A DNA stretch of 64,000 nucleotides from a virus, in the IMG/VR virus record IMGVR_UViG_3300022744_000022, positions 144,487 to 208,486 of that record; one strand, 5' to 3'. Position numbers and translations under genes: made by a program. Shown one piece after another: positions 3,419 through 58,051 of this stretch; the first letter of the stretch is position 1, and every line of letters begins with the position of its first letter. The notes beneath the pieces were generated by a model. That model had not been told where the DNA came from and ran no database searches. It was given only the letters and a program-made list of their open reading frames with translations.

Positions 3419-4045
3419 TCACAAGTCGTCTTCGTCCTCTAGAGCAGCCCACAAGCCGCCGCCGCTGCCCCGGAGTTGGTTCTGCATCACACGTTGAAGT
3501 GGTGTGACGGCTTTGAACATGGCCTCCCGTCCAGAGTCATCGGGGACGGTCAGCGTAAAGAGCATCACGGAGTGCGTTTCATCGAGTAGCGTCAGAAGCC
3601 GGGTGCCTTCTTTGGGGCCAGGATCGAAGATGAAGTGGAGCCGCCAAACCCCACCGCCCGCACCCTGCTGGTTCTGGAACCCAGTCACCACGTGGTAGGG
3701 CTCGTCCGAGAGGGGCTCTGCTTGATACTGCGTCCCAATGGCTCGCAACCGAACGGCGAGATCCGACGAGTTTGCCAGCCCGAGGTTCCGCTCTCTAGTT
3801 TCTTGTATCACCTGCTCGGGGGTCTTCTTCACGGGGACGTGCAGGATCGTCTCCATGTATTCGTGGACACCCTGCGTCACTTTCGCTTTTGGGGTGGCCG
3901 TGTAGCTGATCGTCCGATTCCGTGGGTGCTCTTGGTGTAGTAACCCATTAGCCTTGCCCTGGACCCCCATGGTCCGGATCACGATCACCGTCGGACATTC
4001 CTCAGGGTTCAACCGAATCGGCCTACGTGTGACATCGATGAGCAC
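3419..4045 (-). CDS. Conserved-looking protein of unknown function
   Basis: 208 residues, GTG start; its stop abuts the NadD fusion gene stop (convergent). No family recognised. The middle has a mixed alpha/beta pattern, with VWRLHFIF and LLTLLDE strand-like segments. The C-terminus GGGLWAALEDEDDL is a loose version of the LW-acidic tail seen in several proteins here. A GGTGTAGTA box lies 6 bases before the start. Confidence 0.7.
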   Translation of the reverse strand: MLIDVTRRPIRLNPEECPTVIVIRTMGVQGKANGLLHQEHPRNRTISYTATPKAKVTQGVHEYMETILHVPVKKTPEQVIQETRERNLGLANSSDLAVRLRAIGTQYQAEPLSDEPYHVVTGFQNQQGAGGGVWRLHFIFDPGPKEGTRLLTLLDETHSVMLFTLTVPDDSGREAMFKAVTPLQRVMQNQLRGSGGGLWAALEDEDDL

Positions 4046-10712: not shown

Positions 10713-10951
10713 GCTACCAGGCTCAGTACCGCTGCGTTCGCTGCCAGCAGCGGTTCGAGGTCACACAGGGCGTCTTCGGGTGCCCTCCGGGGCACCAAGC
10801 AGACCCTGATAGCCCGTGCGGGCGTAGCCAGCGCCAGTACCGTTGTGCGAGCTGCGCCAAAGCCCAGAGGTGCCCCCAATGCGAACACCTCTGGGTCGAG
10901 TGGCTCAACTACCAGACCCTCGTGGCAACGCATAAACTTCCTGTGCTGTAG
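10709..10951 (+). CDS. Double zinc-ribbon small protein
   Basis: 80 residues with CVRCQQ, CPPG, CASCAK and CPQCEHLW, suggesting two interleaved zinc ribbons. Start overlaps the phosphoesterase stop (ATGA). No specific family recognised. Confidence 0.75.
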   Translation: MSYQAQYRCVRCQQRFEVTQGVFGCPPGHQADPDSPCGRSQRQYRCASCAKAQRCPQCEHLWVEWLNYQTLVATHKLPVL

Positions 10952-10958
10952 CCAAGGT

Positions 10959-12677
10959 ATGCTCCCCGAACGAGTGCTTCGCAGGTACCTGCGAGCGAAA
11001 AGCACCAAGAAGCGCATGGTCGTCATGATGGGCCCACCCGCAGCGGGTAAAGGCTTCTTCTTGGGCGAGCCGCCGCCGAAGTTCGGCTGGAAACTCCCCA
11101 AGATGCTCGTGGACGACAAGGGCAACCCGCTCTTGACCGAGGACGACATCCCGGAACGTCCGCACTCAGAGGAATCCGACAACCACCTGCGAGCTATCCA
11201 GTTCGAGGAAGCAAAGAAGCACTTCGACACGCTCAAGGCGGCACACGAAGAAGGTCCGGAAGCCTTCAAGAAGGCGCTCTCCGACCACTGGTACGCGACC
11301 AAGGATGGGGATCGCGTAGACCTCAGCAAGACGGTCAACTACGACGATTTCCCTGAGACCTTGAAGGACTACCACGCCAAGACGAACAAGGATTTCTACG
11401 TCTCGATGCGGGGTTGGCACGACGACGCGAAAGAAAAGAACGAGGTTACGGGTAAGCCCAAGGAGCGCTTCAAGGACGAGGCGAGGCACCGCTTCGAGGA
11501 GACGCTGCACAAGAAGATCGAAGAAATCGAGGACATGTTGATCGTGGACTCGGCAGGCGAGGACATCGACGCCCAAGACTACAAGGGCCAGATCGCTGCC
11601 GCCAAAGAGGCTGGATACGAAGTTACGGTCATCTTCCTGCATCCTGAGCAAGCCGACACCGAGCTGTCCAACCTGGCTCGCGGTAAGGTGCAGGGCAAGC
11701 GCATGGTGGACCAGTCGGATATCTCGAACTGGTACGAGAAGAACGCTGAGGCTCTCAAGGACATCCAAGAAGCAGCCCCCGACAACTTCGTGCATTACCG
11801 GAAAGGGCCGCCTGACGCGGACCCCAAGAAGGCGGCTGAGTTGCGGGCCAAGGCTCGCGACATGATGAACAAGCTCTCGGGCCTAGAGGGCGAAGAAAAA
11901 GAGAAGGCCAAGCAGGAGATCAATCAAGTCTTGTACGGGGCTGCTTCGTACAAGCTGCACAAGCCTACGTCGTACGGCTCGGCTGTGAGCGGGCTTCCTG
12001 AGAAGCCCGAGGAAAGTAGCATCGCCGACGCCGTAGAGGCCATGAACACCGAGGCTGAGAAGCGATCAGGTTCAGGCCAGCCCAAGAAGGTCAAGCCTGA
12101 GGGTGAGCAGACTCCGGAGAAGCAGACTCCGGAGAAGCAGCCTCCGGAGAAGCCCGAGGGTAAAGCCAAACCGGAGGCCGGGTCGGAGAAAACCCGGATG
12201 AACTTCCTACGGGAGCTGGGGGATCAGAAGGTCAAGAACCCCAACCCGGAGTCGCGGGATCGCTTCCCTCAAATTAAGATCAGGTCGCTACCCTGGACAT
12301 ACCAGAAGCCCTACTACGAAAAGTGGCGGGGCAAACAGGCAGCGCAACGTGTGGCAAAACGCTACCTGGAGGCAACGATGGCTGGTAAGGGATGGCTCGC
12401 AGGTTGGATGCATGAGCTTGCGGACGAGCTTGGGAAGACCAAGGTCGAGGGCTACAAAGTTTCTGCTGAGGCCGGTAAAGGTCCGCTGGTCCTGGTGACC
12501 ATCAAGGGTGCTACCGAGGACTCAACGACTGCCCGCAAGGCCAAACAATCGATCGAGAAGGTGATGGAGCACTCCATCAAGAAGCACTCAGAGGGTGTCC
12601 CCGGGTTCAAGCACCGCGTCAAGAGCTTCAACAAAGGTGCGGATCTCATACTTGAGTGCGAGGTCTTGTTTCCTTGA
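10959..12677 (+). CDS. P-loop kinase (zeta-toxin-like) with KPE linker and RYL motifs
   Basis: 572 residues from ATG 10959. The N-terminus MLPERVLRRYLRA is followed by a Walker A, MMGPPAAGKGFF, then a helical insert, a strand-like MLIVDSAGED and a lid-like GKRMVDQSDISNWY. The fold resembles zeta-toxin or polynucleotide kinases. Residues ~385-415 are a Lys/Pro/Glu repeat encoded by a 15-base tandem repeat. A C-terminal domain starts with AQRVAKRYLEA, a second copy of the V-x-x-RYL motif. In large phages such architectures are sometimes virion proteins. Substrate unknown. A strong hairpin follows the stop. Confidence 0.65.
   Translation: MLPERVLRRYLRAKSTKKRMVVMMGPPAAGKGFFLGEPPPKFGWKLPKMLVDDKGNPLLTEDDIPERPHSEESDNHLRAIQFEEAKKHFDTLKAAHEEGPEAFKKALSDHWYATKDGDRVDLSKTVNYDDFPETLKDYHAKTNKDFYVSMRGWHDDAKEKNEVTGKPKERFKDEARHRFEETLHKKIEEIEDMLIVDSAGEDIDAQDYKGQIAAAKEAGYEVTVIFLHPEQADTELSNLARGKVQGKRMVDQSDISNWYEKNAEALKDIQEAAPDNFVHYRKGPPDADPKKAAELRAKARDMMNKLSGLEGEEKEKAKQEINQVLYGAASYKLHKPTSYGSAVSGLPEKPEESSIADAVEAMNTEAEKRSGSGQPKKVKPEGEQTPEKQTPEKQPPEKPEGKAKPEAGSEKTRMNFLRELGDQKVKNPNPESRDRFPQIKIRSLPWTYQKPYYEKWRGKQAAQRVAKRYLEATMAGKGWLAGWMHELADELGKTKVEGYKVSAEAGKGPLVLVTIKGATEDSTTARKAKQSIEKVMEHSIKKHSEGVPGFKHRVKSFNKGADLILECEVLFP
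12108..12152 (+). repeat. 15-base tandem repeat, three copies
   Basis: Three near-identical copies of CAGACTCCGGAGAAG (the third has CAGCC) encode a QTPEK repeat in the linker of the P-loop kinase gene. Confidence 0.9.
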
Positions 12678-40439: not shown

Positions 40440-40465
40440 AAACAAGCCTTGCGCCCTTCTCGGTC

Positions 40466-40503
40466 GGTGTAGTAGAACCGGGTGTCCTTGAATCGGTGTA
40501 GTA
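40466..40503 (+). promoter_or_regulatory. Tandem GGTGTAGTA boxes before the ABC operon
   Basis: Two identical GGTGTAGTA boxes, 20 bases apart. Neither has CTAG/TTGA at exactly 16 bases; TTGC lies 13 bases before the first. Start of the operon at 40538. Confidence 0.6.
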
Positions 40504-40537: not shown

Positions 40538-41221
40538 ATGACGAACGCATTCTGGAAGGGTCTGGCCAAGGTCGGACTTGTTGAGATCAACGAAGACGCC
40601 CCCGCCGCCTCTCAAGGCGAGACGGCTGCACAGCATACGGCGGTCACGGCTCGCCCTGCGGCCACACCGGCGGCACCTCCTGTCGGCGACCCTGGGCTCG
40701 TGGCAACCCTAGACGAGTCATCCAGGGCACAGCTCGTGGCTTCGATGGAGGCATCGGGGGCACAGCTCGTAGAAGACCTGATGGACATGCTCGGGACGCT
40801 CCGGGAGAACATCACCGATGAAGCGGCGCTCTACAAGGCGGCGCTCAAGATCCTGATCAAGCAGGGCAACACAGTCCTGGCGATTCGTCAGGACTTCGAC
40901 AAGTGCATCGGGGCCCTCGAAACCACAAACCGCGAGTTTGCGGCTCAACTCAAGAGCCAACTTGACAAGCGGGTGGGTGGTAAGCTCAAGACCGCTCAAG
41001 ACTGCAAGGCTCAGATAGCTGCCAAGCAGCAACAGATCGAAGCACTTCAGAACGAAGTGGCCAACCTTGCGGCCCAAGCTCACGAAGCTGAGGGCAGTGT
41101 GGCCGATGAACAGGCCAAGCTCGATCTCGCTCAACAGCGGTTCACACACAACTACACAGCGATTCGCGGAGAAATTGAAGCCAACTGCGCGAAGGTCGCC
41201 CAGTACGGGGAGAAGCTATGA
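40538..41221 (+). CDS. Cytosolic coiled-coil protein, PspA-like in layout
   Basis: 227 residues. Pro/Ala linker at ~25-55, then helices and a long coiled coil (AQIAAKQQQIEALQNEV, AHEAEGSVADEQAKLDL). No membrane segment. It resembles PspA/IM30-type proteins in shape only. First gene of the ABC/OmpA operon; overlaps the next gene (ATGA). Confidence 0.7.
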   Translation: MTNAFWKGLAKVGLVEINEDAPAASQGETAAQHTAVTARPAATPAAPPVGDPGLVATLDESSRAQLVASMEASGAQLVEDLMDMLGTLRENITDEAALYKAALKILIKQGNTVLAIRQDFDKCIGALETTNREFAAQLKSQLDKRVGGKLKTAQDCKAQIAAKQQQIEALQNEVANLAAQAHEAEGSVADEQAKLDLAQQRFTHNYTAIRGEIEANCAKVAQYGEKL

Positions 41222-42282
41222 ACGAGATCACGACCAGTCAGCCAAAGAAGTGGTACGAGAAGCCGGAGAACGTCCTGGTCTACGGCGTGCTTGGGGGCGT
41301 GGCTGTCTACAGCATCAAGCACATCGAGTCGATCGTTGCCTCGATCGTCCACATCATCGAGATGGGGGTCTGGGGGCTCGCGTTGCTGCTGGTGGGTTCC
41401 GTGCTGGGCTTCATGCTCGTCAACGGCGACTTCCACCGTGCCGCATGGCTGCTGTACGAAAACGCCATGCGTAAGGTTACGGGCCTGATCGTTGAGCTGG
41501 ACCCTATTGGGTCCATGAAGTCCTTCCTCAAGAGCTTAGGCAAGTACCAACAACAGCTCAAGACGAGTTTGCAAGCCATGCGTGGGCAGGCTGAGAAGCT
41601 CACGGACAAGCTCTCTCGTTCGGATCAGGCACAAGAGCACAGCCTCAAGCTGATGTCGCAGGCTCAGTCCCGTTCAACCGAAAAGGGCATGGCCCTTGAG
41701 ATGCGCAAGCAAGGTCGGAAAGCCTCTCGCGCCGAAGATCTCTCGATCACGTACCAAGGCCTACTCAACAAGGTCCGCATGATGATCGCGGTCATGGAGA
41801 AGGTCGAGGAAGCCACGGACTTCATGGTCGTGGACATCGCGGAAACCATCGAGACGGAATCCGAAAAGCGGGAGACCATCAACGAAGCTTGGAAGGCTAT
41901 GAACGCCGCCAAGCGTATCCTTGCCAAGAACAAGCAGCGTGAGATCTACGACATGGCGTTGGAAGCGACGCAGCGTGACTACGCCTTCAAGGTCGGCGAG
42001 ATCAAACAGTTCATGCGGGACACCGAGAGCTTCATCAACACGATGGATCTCGAAAACGGTGTGGCAGACGCCGATGCCCTCAAGATGCTTGAGCGTTGGG
42101 AGCAACGTTCCCTTGCTCTGCTCGAAGGCGGCTCGGGTAAGACCAAGTACCGTGTGGCCCCCGTCACAGCGGGCAGCTCACGCATGCTCGTGTCCAGCAC
42201 CGGCGCTCAAGTGATCGATGCCGAGATAGTTGAAGGCGACCGGCCTTCGTTCGCCACTCTCTTCGACAAGCTCGACAAGTAG
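41218..42282 (+). CDS. Membrane-anchored coiled-coil protein
   Basis: 354 residues. Two hydrophobic segments at ~18-33 and ~49-68 are followed by a long cytosolic helical region (EKLTDKLSRSDQAQEHSLKL, MALEMRKQGRKASRAEDL) and a short C-terminal part ending TLFDKLDK. It may tether the first coiled-coil protein to the membrane. Partner function is inferred only from the operon. Confidence 0.75.
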   Translation: MNEITTSQPKKWYEKPENVLVYGVLGGVAVYSIKHIESIVASIVHIIEMGVWGLALLLVGSVLGFMLVNGDFHRAAWLLYENAMRKVTGLIVELDPIGSMKSFLKSLGKYQQQLKTSLQAMRGQAEKLTDKLSRSDQAQEHSLKLMSQAQSRSTEKGMALEMRKQGRKASRAEDLSITYQGLLNKVRMMIAVMEKVEEATDFMVVDIAETIETESEKRETINEAWKAMNAAKRILAKNKQREIYDMALEATQRDYAFKVGEIKQFMRDTESFINTMDLENGVADADALKMLERWEQRSLALLEGGSGKTKYRVAPVTAGSSRMLVSSTGAQVIDAEIVEGDRPSFATLFDKLDK

Positions 42283-42306
42283 ACCTCAGGAAAGAAGGCT
42301 ATTGTT

Positions 42307-44142
42307 ATGAAAGACGTTACGTTCAAGAAAGGCCCACTTTTTACCCTACTCGGTATCCTGGGGGCAGGTTTCGGGCTCTACTACGCCTACAACCACGGCT
42401 ACCTCGGGCCCTCCAGTGCTGGTCCCGCTTCGATCCCTCAGGTGGCGGCCCTTCCGGATGCCCCCGAAGCGGTGATCCCGCAGGTGGCGGTCCCGATTGC
42501 TCCACTACCGTCGGCCACCCCGGCGGCCGTTCCTGGACCTAGCGTCCGGTTCCTCGGGATGGCGTGGAACTCGCAGATGGGTCTGGCGTTCGCCAATGGC
42601 GGCCCCAAGACCACCGTGGGCAGTCTCATGGAGCAGCACAAGGTCAACCTGACCTTCACCCGTGAGGATGACTGCGGCAAGATGCAGACGCAGCTCATTG
42701 CGTTCGCCAAGTCCCTCAAGGACGGGGATCCCAACCCTACGGACGGCGCTCACTTCGTCGCTGTGATGGGCGATGGTTCCGCAGCCTTCATTGCAGGCAT
42801 GTGGGACGAGTTGAAGAAGCTCGGTCCCGAGTACCTGCCCGAAGTGATCGGCTCCGCTGGTTACTCGCGTGGCGAAGACAAGCTCATGGGGCCCGCCGCA
42901 TGGAAGCAAACCCCCAAGCTCATGCGGGGCAGCCTGATCGCTGGCTACCTGCGGGATGGTGACTGGAACATCGCCCTCAAGTTCGGTGCGGACAACGGGG
43001 TCAAGAACAACCCGGATGAACGGACCTGGGACCCGGATGCCATGAACTGGTACTCCACCAGCGACTTTATCGCGGCGGGTGACGCCTACATCAACGGCGT
43101 TTGCGAAGATCGTCCTGTAGTCCGTGACGGCAAGCGTACGGGCGAGACCAAGCACATTTGCGTCAACGGTGTCGTGACGTGGACCCCGGGTGACGTGAAC
43201 ATCGCGACTCAAAAGGGTGGCCTCGTCTCGATCGTCTCGACGGCTGACGGTCGTTTTGGCCCAGGGTCAATCGGTTACCGTTCGCAGATGCCCAACACCA
43301 TCATCGGTATCAAGAAGTGGAACCAGGCCAATCGTAAGACGGTCGAGAACTTCCTGGCCGCCATGTACGAAGGCGGAGATCAGGTGAAGGCCAGCCCGGC
43401 GGCTTTGACCCGGGGTGCTCAGGCCTCAGCGGTCATCTACCACGACAAGGATGCAGCGTACTGGGAGAAGTATTTCAAGGGCGTCGTGGAGAACGACAAG
43501 ACGGGTGTGCCGGTCGAGCTTGGCGGTTCCTCTGTCAACAACCTGCAAGACGCGGGCCGCCTCTACGGTCTTACCCAAGGTGCTCCGAATCTCTTTGCCG
43601 CCACCTACACGGTGTTCGGTGACCTCGTGAAGCAACAGTACCCGAAGCTTGTCCCGAGCTACCCGCCGGTCCAGGACGTGCTCAACGCGAGCTACACCCA
43701 AAACCTACTGCAAGCGCAACAGGCGTCGGGCGTGGCCGTGGTAGCAGCGGACAAGCCGGTGTTCGAGGCCAAGACCGAAGTCACGCAAGTCGTCTCAAAG
43801 CGTGAGTGGCCCATCAACTTCGAGACGGGCAAGGCCACCTTTACCCCTGAGACACTGACGCAACTAAACGAGCTGTACAACGGCCTCTTGGTTGCGGAGG
43901 AATTGGGGATCGTGATTGAGGGCCACACGGACTCCACGGGTGACCCCATCAAGAACCAGACCCTCAGTCAGATGCGTGCCGATGCGGTTCGTGACTGGCT
44001 CATGCAGCAAGGTGCATCGAGCTTCCCTCGTGACCGCTTCATCAAGGTCAAGGGGCTCGGGGACACCAAGCCGGTGGCCACCAACGATACCGACACAGGG
44101 CGGGCCAAGAACCGTCGTGTGGTCGTCATCTTGGGCACCTGA
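42307..44142 (+). CDS. Substrate-binding protein fused to OmpA domain
   Basis: 611 residues, with AGGAAAG upstream. An N-terminal anchor helix (~10-27) has no clear cleavage site; a Pro/Ala-rich spacer follows (~40-75). Residues ~78-440 are a NitT/TauT/PstS-type binding-protein fold (LGMAWNSQMGLAFANGG, GVVTWTPGDVNIAT, QMPNTIIGIKKWNQAN). The C-terminal ~120 residues are OmpA-type: INFETGKATF, IEGHTDSTGD, GLGDTKPVATNDTDTGR. The design would hold the binding protein between inner membrane and peptidoglycan. Confidence 0.88.
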   Translation: MKDVTFKKGPLFTLLGILGAGFGLYYAYNHGYLGPSSAGPASIPQVAALPDAPEAVIPQVAVPIAPLPSATPAAVPGPSVRFLGMAWNSQMGLAFANGGPKTTVGSLMEQHKVNLTFTREDDCGKMQTQLIAFAKSLKDGDPNPTDGAHFVAVMGDGSAAFIAGMWDELKKLGPEYLPEVIGSAGYSRGEDKLMGPAAWKQTPKLMRGSLIAGYLRDGDWNIALKFGADNGVKNNPDERTWDPDAMNWYSTSDFIAAGDAYINGVCEDRPVVRDGKRTGETKHICVNGVVTWTPGDVNIATQKGGLVSIVSTADGRFGPGSIGYRSQMPNTIIGIKKWNQANRKTVENFLAAMYEGGDQVKASPAALTRGAQASAVIYHDKDAAYWEKYFKGVVENDKTGVPVELGGSSVNNLQDAGRLYGLTQGAPNLFAATYTVFGDLVKQQYPKLVPSYPPVQDVLNASYTQNLLQAQQASGVAVVAADKPVFEAKTEVTQVVSKREWPINFETGKATFTPETLTQLNELYNGLLVAEELGIVIEGHTDSTGDPIKNQTLSQMRADAVRDWLMQQGASSFPRDRFIKVKGLGDTKPVATNDTDTGRAKNRRVVVILGT

Positions 44143-44151
44143 AATAGCCCC

Positions 44152-44931
44152 ATGACCAACGCCTTTCGACCCAACCGAAGCCTCACCGGACAAGCCTGGA
44201 CCATCCTCTTGGGTGTGGAGGCCGCTGCGTTCCTGCTTATCTGGACCTTCGGGGACGCCTACTCGATCCCGGGGCCCTACGAGGTGCTGCAAGCTCTCGG
44301 AAGGGCTATCCGGGACGACGGGCTGCTCTACGAGCTAGGGGTCAGCTTCCGGATCAACGTGGAGGCCTTGGCGATCTCCACGTTGATCTCGGTAGGGCTC
44401 GCATGGCTCTCTGTCCTGGCTGCCGTACGCCCCATCGTGGCCGTGCTGTCTAGGGCCAGGTTTCTCAGTCTCGCGGGATTCGTGACCGTGTTCACGTTTG
44501 CCTTTGGGGGCGGCCATGCCCTCAAGGTGTCGCTCCTGACCTTCGGTATCTCGGTCTTCTTTCTCACGTCGATGGCCTCGGTGATCGCTTCGATCCCCCG
44601 AGCCGACTGGGATCAGGCCCGGTCCCTGAGAATGTCGGACTGGCGGAGTGTCTGGGAGATCGCTGTGCTCGGGAAGGCCGACGAAACGTTCGAGATGTTC
44701 CGCCAGAACGCTGCGATCGGCTGGGTGATGCTCACCATGGTCGAGGGTTTGGTCCGCTCTGAGGGCGGCGTGGGTGGCATCCTGCTCAACTCCACCCGCT
44801 ACCGAAACTTCGCCGCCGTGTTCGCAGTGCAAATTGCCGTGGCTCTCTTGGGTGCCGGACAAGACCGCCTGATCGCGTACCTCAAGCACAAGGTGTGCCC
44901 TTACAGTGCCCTCACGTTGGAGCGTAACTAA
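44152..44931 (+). CDS. ABC transporter permease, NitT/TauT type
   Basis: 259 residues with five to six transmembrane segments and a BPD_transp_1-like core. The coupling loop is RADWDQARSLRMSDWRSVWEI, and AAIGWVMLTMVEGLV follows. It should form the membrane channel for the adjacent ATPase and binding protein. Starts nine bases after the binding-protein gene. Confidence 0.87.
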   Translation: MTNAFRPNRSLTGQAWTILLGVEAAAFLLIWTFGDAYSIPGPYEVLQALGRAIRDDGLLYELGVSFRINVEALAISTLISVGLAWLSVLAAVRPIVAVLSRARFLSLAGFVTVFTFAFGGGHALKVSLLTFGISVFFLTSMASVIASIPRADWDQARSLRMSDWRSVWEIAVLGKADETFEMFRQNAAIGWVMLTMVEGLVRSEGGVGGILLNSTRYRNFAAVFAVQIAVALLGAGQDRLIAYLKHKVCPYSALTLERN

Positions 44932-44933
44932 TC

Positions 44934-45878
44934 ATGGGTTTCAACGATCTTGCCAACCAAGCTCTAGAGGGCGCTTCCGTACGAGCCCCCGAGACCCGGC
45001 ACTCTAAAGTGGGGCAATACTCTCTCGGGGAAGTGCTGGTACGAGTCACGGACGTGACGCTCAGCTTCCAGAACAAAGACAACCCGGATGAGCCTCCGAA
45101 AGTTGTGCTCAAGCCTACGAGCATCGAGGTTCGGAACATCAGCCGTCCGAGTCTTGAGCAGGGACAGGTTGTGGGGCTGCTCGGGCCCTCGGGCATCGGC
45201 AAGTCGCAATTCAGCCGCATCCTCGCGGGGCTCCAGAAGCCTACGAGTGGCCAAGTGCTGGTCAGTGACTTCGAGGCGGACAAGACAGGGGCTCAGCTTC
45301 GCCCTGTCGAAGCCGGGCACGTCGGGATGGTCGCTCAGGACTACCCGTTGTTTCGGTGGCGTACTGTGCTCGGGAACCTGATCGTCGCGTTGGAGCACAC
45401 CACGCTGTCCAAGAAGGACAAGATCGAGAGGGCTCAAGAGTACCTCAGGCTGTTTGACGTTCAAGAGCTGGCCCCCAAGTACCCGGCTCAGCTCTCGGGT
45501 GGGCAACGTCAACGGATCGCGATCATCCGGCAACTCTTGTGTGCCGAGCACTTCATCGTGATGGACGAGCCCTTCACGGGTCTAGACCCGATCTCGAAGG
45601 ACATCGTGTGCGAAGTGATCAACAAGGTCGCGACACTGCACGAGCACAACACCATCTTCGTGGTGGCTCACGACATCACCGCGTTGTGCCAAATTTCCGA
45701 TCAGCTCTGGCTCTTTGGCCGGGACCGTGACGAAGAAGGCAAGGTGATCCCCGGTGCTACGGTCAAGACCAAGTTCGACCTCATCGAGCGAGGGCTAGCG
45801 TGGCAGCCCGGCATCTACGAGACGCAGCCTTTCACGGATTTCGTGCGTGAGGTTCGTTCGGAATTCAGGCACCTCTAG
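44934..45878 (+). CDS. ABC transporter ATPase
   Basis: 314 residues. Walker A GPSGIGKS (84-91), Q-loop in MVAQDYPLF, signature LSGGQRQR (187-194), Walker B FIVMDEP (207-213) and the switch His in VVAHDITAL are all intact, so it should hydrolyse ATP. The N-terminal ~30 residues extend beyond the usual domain. Two bases separate it from the permease gene. Confidence 0.93.
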   Translation: MGFNDLANQALEGASVRAPETRHSKVGQYSLGEVLVRVTDVTLSFQNKDNPDEPPKVVLKPTSIEVRNISRPSLEQGQVVGLLGPSGIGKSQFSRILAGLQKPTSGQVLVSDFEADKTGAQLRPVEAGHVGMVAQDYPLFRWRTVLGNLIVALEHTTLSKKDKIERAQEYLRLFDVQELAPKYPAQLSGGQRQRIAIIRQLLCAEHFIVMDEPFTGLDPISKDIVCEVINKVATLHEHNTIFVVAHDITALCQISDQLWLFGRDRDEEGKVIPGATVKTKFDLIERGLAWQPGIYETQPFTDFVREVRSEFRHL

Positions 45879-45887
45879 GAGTAAATT

Positions 45888-46898
45888 ATGCACACCTTCA
45901 CCGTTGGCACCGAGAAGATGGCCGAGTGGTTCCTTCAGTCGCTCACGGAGGGGCACCGCTACGGTCCTCAACCCTTCGTTAAAGCGCTGGAGGGGTCGAG
46001 TATCTTGAGTGAGCCGACGGGACCGCTCTTGGGCACGACGGCTCGCAATGCCTTCTACTGGGGGCTGACGACGGCGTTCAGCCAACACGTGCCGCTTCGG
46101 ATCTCTCCCGACGCGGTGTGGCTGACGATCTTGAACGGGCTTACGCAGCACATCGACGAGAACCCCGAGGGGCTCCGGCACCACTTCGTGGAGCATGCGG
46201 GTAAGGAAACCTTGCAGGTTTCGGTCGAAGGCTCGCGGTGGGCCGAGCAAGGCGTGCAGCTCATGTCGGCGGCGTTGAAAGAGCGCCTTGGCAAGCGTCA
46301 CGACCTGATCGTGTCGTCGTTTTCGACAACGGCGGACGTGGATCGTGTTGCCTCGGAGATCATGCTCATGGGGGCGATGAAGCACTACTTCGAGTATCGT
46401 ATGATGCTCTGCTGCGGCTTGACCAACGTGACGATCTTGGGCGAGCCCGCCGACTGGGAGAACATCAAAGTTCGGCTCGGGGCAATGAGCGAGTTCGATC
46501 TCAAGTGGTGGACCGATCACTTGATCCCGATCGTGGACCAATTCAAGTCCGCCTGTGAGGGCAACCCAGACGTGGACTTTTGGAAGCGTCTGTACGTTCG
46601 CGAAGGCTACGGCTCGGGCGGCCAGCATGGTTTCACGGGGTGGCTGACGGCGTTCTACCCGTACTTGCAGGCTGCTCGCGGGGCCCGCGAGCGCAACCCG
46701 AAGGTCAACTGGGCTGCGGCTGGCCGTGTGGATGCGGACGACCTTCCTTCAGGGCTGGCGTTTGCTCCAGTGACCGTCGTATACCCAGACGGCTCGGAGC
46801 ACCCTCACAAGTTCTACGGGGGCGTCGTGGGCTGTACGTTCGAGGAAGGGGCCATTCGGCCGATCTCAGGCTGGTCAGCGCAAGAGCAACCAGCGTAG
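45888..46898 (+). CDS. DUF4419 protein
   Basis: 336 residues; AGGAG seven bases before the ATG. FVKALEGSSILSEPTGPLLG, AFSQHVPLRISPDAVWLTIL, LCCGLTNVTILGEPADWENI and GWLTAFYPYL are the DUF4419 landmarks. Family function is unknown. As the last gene of the ABC/OmpA operon it may work with the transporter, but it could be an independent passenger. Confidence 0.88.
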   Translation: MHTFTVGTEKMAEWFLQSLTEGHRYGPQPFVKALEGSSILSEPTGPLLGTTARNAFYWGLTTAFSQHVPLRISPDAVWLTILNGLTQHIDENPEGLRHHFVEHAGKETLQVSVEGSRWAEQGVQLMSAALKERLGKRHDLIVSSFSTTADVDRVASEIMLMGAMKHYFEYRMMLCCGLTNVTILGEPADWENIKVRLGAMSEFDLKWWTDHLIPIVDQFKSACEGNPDVDFWKRLYVREGYGSGGQHGFTGWLTAFYPYLQAARGARERNPKVNWAAAGRVDADDLPSGLAFAPVTVVYPDGSEHPHKFYGGVVGCTFEEGAIRPISGWSAQEQPA

Positions 46899-56518: not shown

Positions 56519-56656
56519 CTACACCGAAACAGCATCGGTGTGCAGCAGCCCCGTGAGACGCTGCACTTCTTGCCGTAAAGCATCTCGGTCTGCACGGCAC
56601 AGGTCAGCGCAGCCTTTGGCGCAAACCTTTCCGGTCGTCGGGCAACTATTGCTCAT
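56519..56656 (-). CDS. 45-residue Cys-rich protein
   Basis: Frame starting MSNSCPTTGKVCAKGC, with CADLC and a C-terminal helix (ADRDALRQEVQRLTGLL). It overlaps the stop of the upstream gene by 11 bases; its own stop lies in the next GGTGTAG box. No family recognised. Confidence 0.65.
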   Translation of the reverse strand: MSNSCPTTGKVCAKGCADLCRADRDALRQEVQRLTGLLHTDAVSV

Positions 56657-57779
56657 AGGTGACTTGGAATAGGGTCGGGTTGATCACCGAGACGTAGCTG
56701 CTCACGTCGCAGTGATCATCGGACTGGAAGGCGTACGCGAGGCCGTCTTGGCAATTCGCGTGGATCTCTTTCGAGTAGTGGTTGGTGATCGGGTCCTGGT
56801 AAAAACCAGCCTTGTCCTTGCACCACTGGCAGTCCGAGGAATTGGCGAGCGTCTGGACCGTGAGCATAACCGAGCGGTTGAACGCGGCACAGAGCGTACC
56901 CATGAGCTGGTTCGCGTAGTTCTCTTGCAGCGACCCCGGTGCCCCGCGTCCCGAAAAGCAGAAGCGGAAGTTGTTCTCGAACAGGTCCTGGGTCGAAGGG
57001 ACGCTCAAGACGATCGGCTCCAGGGGCAGATCGCTCGTCTTGAACACGAACAGGCCCTCTTGAACTCGCCCCACCCACTGCACGAAGGTGTTGGAACCTG
57101 GGGGCGGATCGCCCACGAAGGTCAAGTCAGCGCTCTCGAAACGATCCCAAACCTGATCGCAGTACATCTTGAGGTACTGGGCATCGATCAAAGGCTTGGG
57201 GATCACCCCCTGCTTGAACGCCGTGATCGCGGTTCCCGGAGCGAGCACTCGTTCAGGGAGTATGAGTCCACGGAAGTCCGGGTTGGCCTGCATGGCCTCC
57301 AGGAACTTGCTGTAGCCGCCTGAGAGCCACCCACGCTGGTAGTCCACGGGTTGCCGGGTTGAGGGTTCCTGGCCCGCACAACGGAACGACAGGGGCATGC
57401 CAGCGCTCTGGACGTTCGACAGGTTCAGGTTGAACAGGCCGTCTTGGCCCACCGGGACGTACGTAACCTCGAAAAAGTCCCACCGGGTCCCGTAGTTGAG
57501 ATCCTGAGGATCCTGCGGCCTCGGGGGGATCGCGTTGCCCGCCTGATCCACCGTGAGCCACAGGGGCTTATCCGAGAGATACAGACGGGCTGCCGACAAC
57601 ATGGGAAAGGGCAGGGACCCCGTGACGGGGAACGACAAGGCCTCAGTGGGCTTCTCCGACGGTACCGACGGCACCGCATTACCCTGTGCGTCACAATGGC
57701 GGGGCTTGCCGCTCACGGGATCCAGGCCGTAGTAGGTGAACCACAGGCCTTGGGCGTTCAGGAATTCGAGTTGGAGCAT
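56646..57779 (-). CDS. GH64 / thaumatin-like fold protein
   Basis: 377 residues from ATG 57779, after a GGTGTAAAGAGGG stretch. WDFFEVTYVPVG (Glu104) followed by LFNLNLSNVQSAGMPLSF matches the beta-1,3-glucanase family 64 centre, and HYSKEIHANCQDGLAYAFQSDD matches its C-terminal end. The usual V-D pair near 123 reads V-Q, so a catalytic Asp may be lost. The fold suggests binding or cleavage of a beta-glucan-like polymer; virion or lysis role unknown. Confidence 0.72.
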   Translation of the reverse strand: MLQLEFLNAQGLWFTYYGLDPVSGKPRHCDAQGNAVPSVPSEKPTEALSFPVTGSLPFPMLSAARLYLSDKPLWLTVDQAGNAIPPRPQDPQDLNYGTRWDFFEVTYVPVGQDGLFNLNLSNVQSAGMPLSFRCAGQEPSTRQPVDYQRGWLSGGYSKFLEAMQANPDFRGLILPERVLAPGTAITAFKQGVIPKPLIDAQYLKMYCDQVWDRFESADLTFVGDPPPGSNTFVQWVGRVQEGLFVFKTSDLPLEPIVLSVPSTQDLFENNFRFCFSGRGAPGSLQENYANQLMGTLCAAFNRSVMLTVQTLANSSDCQWCKDKAGFYQDPITNHYSKEIHANCQDGLAYAFQSDDHCDVSSYVSVINPTLFQVTYEQ

Positions 57780-57787
57780 GGCCCTCT

Positions 57788-58051
57788 TTACACCGTAGGT
57801 GCGTTGTCCCGACGCATCGCATCGATCCCCCGCAGGCCCATCACCCACAGAGCACCTTGAACGAAGCCGAGCCAACGCATCGCCTTGTCGAGATCCTGAG
57901 TCAAGAAGACCTCGATCTCACCGCACATCCAGAGCAAGTGCCGGGCTCGCTCAAGCGGCTCCAGGGCTTCGATGTTGCGGACCGGCCCCAAGTCCGGGTA
58001 AGCGGTCCGGAGCGTCTCTCGGGCCGCCTCGATGGCTCGTAGGGCCTGCAT
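57788..58051 (-). CDS. Phage RWLGF-family small helical protein
   Basis: 87 residues from ATG 58051 (TGATG overlap). HLLWMCGEIEVFLTQ then AMRWLGFVQGALWVMGLRGI parallels the 34955 gene. Function unknown. Confidence 0.78.
   Translation of the reverse strand: MQALRAIEAARETLRTAYPDLGPVRNIEALEPLERARHLLWMCGEIEVFLTQDLDKAMRWLGFVQGALWVMGLRGIDAMRRDNAPTV

Follow-up and report, generated by a model that had tools for sequence, protein, structure and literature searches.

The final 64 kb (64,000 nucleotides, hereafter the window) of the 208,486-bp IMG/VR virus record IMGVR_UViG_3300022744_000022 (G000) encode five consecutive genes, g1 to g5, which are a real and recurrent unit: two coiled-coil proteins followed by an ATP-binding cassette (ABC) transporter whose substrate-binding protein is fused to an OmpA domain. 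The anatomy of this cassette is well supported. In our best explanation, which we hold to be probable, it is the phage form of an envelope-homeostasis machine, with a wall-tethered importer of the NitT/TauT type organised by a PspA-like scaffold; its ligand and its benefit to the phage we infer. The genes, the adjoining g6 and the motif copies ahead of g1 are positioned in the window as follows.

40538–41221, + strand: g1, 227 amino acids (aa); disordered N-terminal part, small helical domain and a 112-residue helix; homologue of b1, a protein of bacterial operons
41218–42282, + strand: g2, 354 aa; N-terminal membrane helices and a long helical hairpin; probable membrane-anchored PspA/ESCRT-III-like protein
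42307–44142, + strand: g3, 611 aa; N-terminal membrane anchor, substrate-binding domain and C-terminal OmpA peptidoglycan-binding domain
44152–44931, + strand: g4, 259 aa; ABC importer permease of the BPD_transp_1 type
44934–45878, + strand: g5, 314 aa; ABC ATPase with intact motifs
45888–46898, + strand: g6, 336 aa; DUF4419 (PF14388, 1e-72); adjoins the conserved unit but lies outside it
40464–40474 and 40493–40503, + strand: tandem, exact copies of TCGGTGTAGTA, promoter-like

An earlier note, made from the letters of the window, had described these six open reading frames (ORFs) as one operon, and their positions and common strand were confirmed, with spacings from g1 to g6 of −4, 24, 9, 2 and 9 bases. 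Pfam matches on the six ORFs comprise OmpA in g3 (7e-19), ABC_tran in g5 (8e-27) and DUF4419 in g6, with a weak match of g4 to BPD_transp_1 below the cut-off (5e-4), while g1 and g2 of the window gave nothing specific and no match to PspA. DUF4419 was rejected as a member of the system, g6 being found in the window only and absent from every other locus compared, and the proposed operon is accordingly shortened by one gene.

A DNA-level search of phage records gave no match. Profile searches of IMG/VR with g3 and g4 gave 63 loci, contigs matched by both profiles being counted in. At all 48 complete, non-duplicate viral loci obtained with the initial profiles, g1-g2-g3-g4-g5 are collinear on one strand (48/48, gene order being read with iterated profiles), and the order is therefore far beyond chance. 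The six-gene order that the earlier note had proposed to search for thus holds for five genes and fails for the sixth, and its view of the set as unusual needs correction, as the cassette is no one-off and recurs over many huge-phage lineages. Neighbouring genes overlap at some loci and are separated by inserts exceeding 1 kb at others, with the order retained, and ratios of nonsynonymous to synonymous substitution rates (dN/dS) of 0.01–0.27 in close pairs indicate that all five genes are under purifying selection. Many of the carriers are contigs of 200–530 kb; a PF03237 terminase exceeds the cut-off in 12 of the 30 carriers tested, and G002, G003, G013 and G018 share a terminase at 46–49% identity, three of them (G002, G013 and G018) belonging to the same branch of the transporter tree as the window. 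A search for plasmid carriers of the window's binding domain found none. A separate observation concerns the 478,840-bp IMG/VR contig G011 (L048/L091), in which the operon is of the bacterial type (g3-g4-g5-b8-b1) and the only terminase match is weak; it is either bacterial and wrongly classified or belongs to a huge phage that acquired the operon separately, and for these features it was counted with the bacterial-type operons.

The unit is also found in named phages. All five genes are present in the 462-kb phage LR756500 and the 735-kb phage LR756501/LR756503, and a search with g3 of the latter recovered 15 Lak megaphage records at ∼40% identity as well as gp249 of Bacillus phage G (28% identity over 98% of the query). 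In the Prevotella Lak megaphages Lak-A1 and Lak-B4, read with TAG as Gln, the five genes are collinear. The culturable phage G has a rearranged version spanning gp243–gp250, with permease gp243, ATPase gp245, b1-like gp246, PspA-like gp247, whose N-terminus carries a hydrophobic segment, and gp249 and gp250, both of them binding protein-OmpA fusions with NMT1 domains (locus L130); these consecutive fusions suggest two ligands or a heteromeric receptor. MT835556 encodes a permease, a b1-like protein, a PspA (PF04012 above the cut-off, with a hydrophobic N-terminal segment) and a substrate-binding protein-OmpA fusion, and in both the phage G and the MT835556 operons the transmembrane (TM) PspA relative adjoins the b1-like gene.

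The earlier note expected active transport from intact ATPase motifs, and its claim about the motifs was borne out: Walker A, LSGGQ, Walker B and the H-loop are all present in g5, and by simple patterns 48 of 52 ATPases have a full set of ABC motifs. Equally, its picture of an ABC importer with a binding protein tethered to both inner membrane and peptidoglycan is supported by the predicted N-terminal anchor and the OmpA domain of g3, in which Asp542 and Arg557, presumably the peptidoglycan contacts from what is known of OmpA domains, are invariant in 79 phage and bacterial g3 proteins. Across the same proteins the binding domain has ∼30 positions with conservation of 95% or more, including six Asp, one Glu, three Trp and three Asn but no Arg or Lys, and this set therefore suggests one shared, conserved ligand that is probably not an anion. 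Pfam does not recognise an NMT1-type binding domain in g3 of the window; NMT1/NMT1_2 domains are found in its counterparts from the 735-kb phage, Lak and phage G, a nitrate/sulfonate binding-protein match occurs among the g3 relatives, and BPD_transp_1 exceeds the cut-off in the g4 homologues of phage G and the 735-kb phage. The cassette therefore resembles NitT/TauT (nitrate/sulfonate/taurine, NMT1-type) importers in the type of its permease and ATPase and, recognisably in phage G, Lak and the 735-kb phage, of its binding domain. It differs from them in that the phage binding protein is membrane-anchored and OmpA-fused, the binding domain of the window has diverged, and there are dedicated coiled-coil partners.

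The earlier note was also right in seeing membrane coiled-coil partners beside the transporter genes. Comparisons of g1 and g2 with the bacterial partners using three-sequence profiles gave nothing, which was resolved with deeper sets: g1 is homologous to b1 by profile comparison (hhalign 96%, E 1e-9). Between g2 and b8, the coiled-coil protein of the bacterial operon, no homology was detectable (53 versus 17 sequences). The AlphaFold (AF2) model of g2 has membrane helices at residues 18–92, a confident long hairpin (96–151/158–232) and two further helices, and a Foldseek search of the PDB with this model places VIPP1 first (E 7.5e-3), with Vipp1, PspA or ESCRT-III accounting for 15 chains of the top 50; no such enrichment was seen among the top matches of the g1 model. 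Profile alignment of the 53 g2 proteins to a PspA set including two TM-bearing phage PspA proteins gave 96% in hhalign (E 4.7e-9, 229 columns), compared to at most 3.5% for 40 block-shuffled g2 alignments used as controls, while a search of PDB sequences with the g2 profile returned no informative match. The label 'PspA-like' given earlier to the coiled-coil partners therefore fails in direct Pfam searches of g1 and g2, and is recovered for g2 by deeper profile and fold comparison. Indeed, g2 is probably a diverged, membrane-anchored member of the PspA superfamily: like PspA/IM30/VIPP1 of the bacterial ESCRT-III superfamily it has a predicted helical-hairpin layout, and its profile similarity spans the full PspA length, but it has N-terminal membrane helices and ∼100 extra residues, and g2 of the window lacks a direct Pfam match. 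PspA-family genes in large phage genomes are also seen in the Jug phages, although there the pspA-like gene lies beside terD and the paper mentions no transporter (PMC12363816), and in Acinetobacter phage vB_AbaM_ME3, known here as a fold-search match only.

The bacterial counterparts with binding protein-OmpA fusions and ABC genes that the earlier note mentioned do exist, and the matching operon type has already been described. Ravi et al. (2024, PMC11237479) report bacterial operons in which PspA and TM-bearing Snf7 homologues accompany an AAA+ ATPase, an ABC ATPase, a permease and PBPB-OmpA, and suggest a connection between membrane remodelling and solute transport. These operons share with the phage cassette an ABC ATPase, a permease, a binding protein-OmpA fusion and a PspA-family partner; they differ in that the phage cassette lacks an AAA+ gene and a soluble PspA, has in g2 a larger, TM-anchored PspA-like protein, and is ordered g1-g2-g3-g4-g5 in huge phages. 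In our own searches g3 homologues were found in 7 of 297 Acidobacteriota genomes and in 19 of 201 genomes in the phylum of an Abditibacterium metagenome-assembled genome. Where the neighbourhood was read, homologues of g4 and g5 were present too (g3 at 48–57% identity), usually followed by b8 and b1; some operons also have PspA and a two-part AAA+, the latter not being seen in many bacterial versions. Just 3' of one bacterial operon lies an R2K-type ATP-grasp gene (L006:14410-15237). The accessible text of Ravi et al. does not place the operon in phages, and neither the huge-phage paper nor the Lak taxonomy paper uses the terms ABC transporter, OmpA or PspA in its main text; as far as we found in the open-licence literature, the cassette was previously described only in bacteria, with no phage report. 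A tree of g3, g4 and g5, rooted on five distant acidobacterial operons and built without the 735-kb phage, Lak and phage G, places the remaining 16 bacterial-type operons in a single clade within the phage diversity. As the root and long branches are uncertain, this placement would fit transfer between phages and bacteria in either direction.

The window also contains candidate control elements. Ahead of g1 the earlier note had seen tandem promoter boxes; a sigma-70-like site was sought there and none was found, while the two exact copies of TCGGTGTAGTA start 74 and 45 bases 5' of g1. With up to one mismatch allowed, 11 copies of the motif (consensus YCGGTGTAGTA) are present in the window, where 0.47 would be expected, at 3932, 4052, 7988, 14779, 18562, 18910, 24662, 40464, 40493, 48445 and 51000, several copies lying 16–18 or 43–74 bases ahead of ORF starts on either strand. 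It is probably a phage-specific promoter element, judged from this distribution.

In our preferred model g3 would present a specific, probably not anionic, solute to a homodimer of g4 powered by g5, and would fix the transporter complex to the peptidoglycan. On the cytoplasmic face, g2 would polymerise or form a scaffold beside the transporter with g1 as adaptor, stabilising the membrane and so coupling import to membrane integrity. A huge phage, with its large genome and presumably long infection, would express the cassette from its own promoter-like elements and thereby keep the host envelope tight and supplied up to lysis. Plain nutrient uptake, in which the genes are an auxiliary metabolic set for one scarce solute and g1 and g2 do no more than cluster or stabilise the transporter, is possible but rather unlikely: the importer family and the conserved binding-domain residues and ATPase motifs would suit it, but g1 and g2 recur in the operon just as regularly as g3 to g5, and to our knowledge ordinary importers of the NitT/TauT family need no PspA-type partner. 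It is improbable that the ABC unit works without transport, in ATP-driven signalling or mechanics of the FtsEX kind that link the PspA-like scaffold to peptidoglycan through g3. While a peptidoglycan tether and a membrane scaffold in one operon, and a binding domain diverged past Pfam recognition in the window's lineage, are consistent with such a role, the importer-type permease of phage G and the 735-kb phage and the strong conservation of the binding domain argue for a ligand.

Superinfection exclusion or counter-defence would have the cassette tighten the envelope or interfere with host responses linked to PspA, at the expense of other phages or of host defence. Phage location itself would fit this reading, as would PADLOC matches, which are confined to the OmpA/MotB domain in common with ZorB and to ABC domains of a generic kind. 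No specific defence family was matched, and because bacteria have the set in their chromosomes, which points to a housekeeping role, we regard this reading as very unlikely; a role in uptake or envelope homeostasis is favoured instead, both by the counterpart in bacteria and by the residues conserved in the binding domain. That the record is a bacterial fragment misfiled as viral is scarcely credible. No terminase was found in searches of G000 itself, as contamination would have it, but a virion structural/tail-spike protein, RtcB, an RNA ligase and a tRNA nucleotidyltransferase of G000, and also a kinase, match phage families, relatives with the same operon have a huge-phage terminase in common, the five-gene unit lies in complete, circular Lak genomes and its rearranged form in an isolated phage. 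The phage context assumed from the outset is therefore sustained, by a 208-kb virus record and by related carriers with terminases.

Several results weigh against the envelope-homeostasis machine, beside the lack of a terminase match in G000. The AAA+ partner of some bacterial operons is absent from the phage cassette, including that of the window, and a search in phages for an operon-specific AAA+ gave generic AAA+ domain matches only. No PDB sequence matches the binding domain as it occurs in the window's lineage. No Foldseek match of g2 in the PDB has an E-value below 0.001; against bacterial PspA alone g2 reaches 19%, the higher value depending on addition of the two phage PspA proteins with TM segments, and clade 2 of the phage g2 proteins taken alone is below significance against PspA. 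A 514-aa generic AAA+ ATPase is encoded in G000 ∼66 kb ahead of the window (G000:C1:77443-78987; L092:444-1988), and is a possible stand-in for the one missing from the operon.

Elsewhere in the window, the protein encoded at 10845–12677 (610 aa) contains a Zeta_toxin-like kinase domain (PF06414, 7.6e-8), a match to glycoside hydrolase family 64 (beta-1,3-glucanase, 4e-46) lies within the phage genome at 56646–57875 on the − strand, and an adenylosuccinate synthetase-like protein (PF00709, 4e-42) overlaps a protein-kinase-like gene (37–1035 and 984–2219).

With this cassette, some of the largest phages known, among them the cultured phage G, can be credited with a definite and conserved piece of cellular machinery, and phage gigantism may be linked to envelope maintenance. 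More tentatively, the largest phages might possess a membrane machine of the ESCRT-III type that is coupled to the wall-anchored transporter and is so ancient that the bacterial forms fall inside the phage diversity of the transporter tree; it would keep the host membrane intact or build infection-specific membrane structures. As phage G is culturable, the functional question is testable. The phage set would provide a minimal, genetically separable model of PspA-family scaffolds working with transporters, a link that Ravi et al. (PMC11237479) were able only to propose, and for bacteria.

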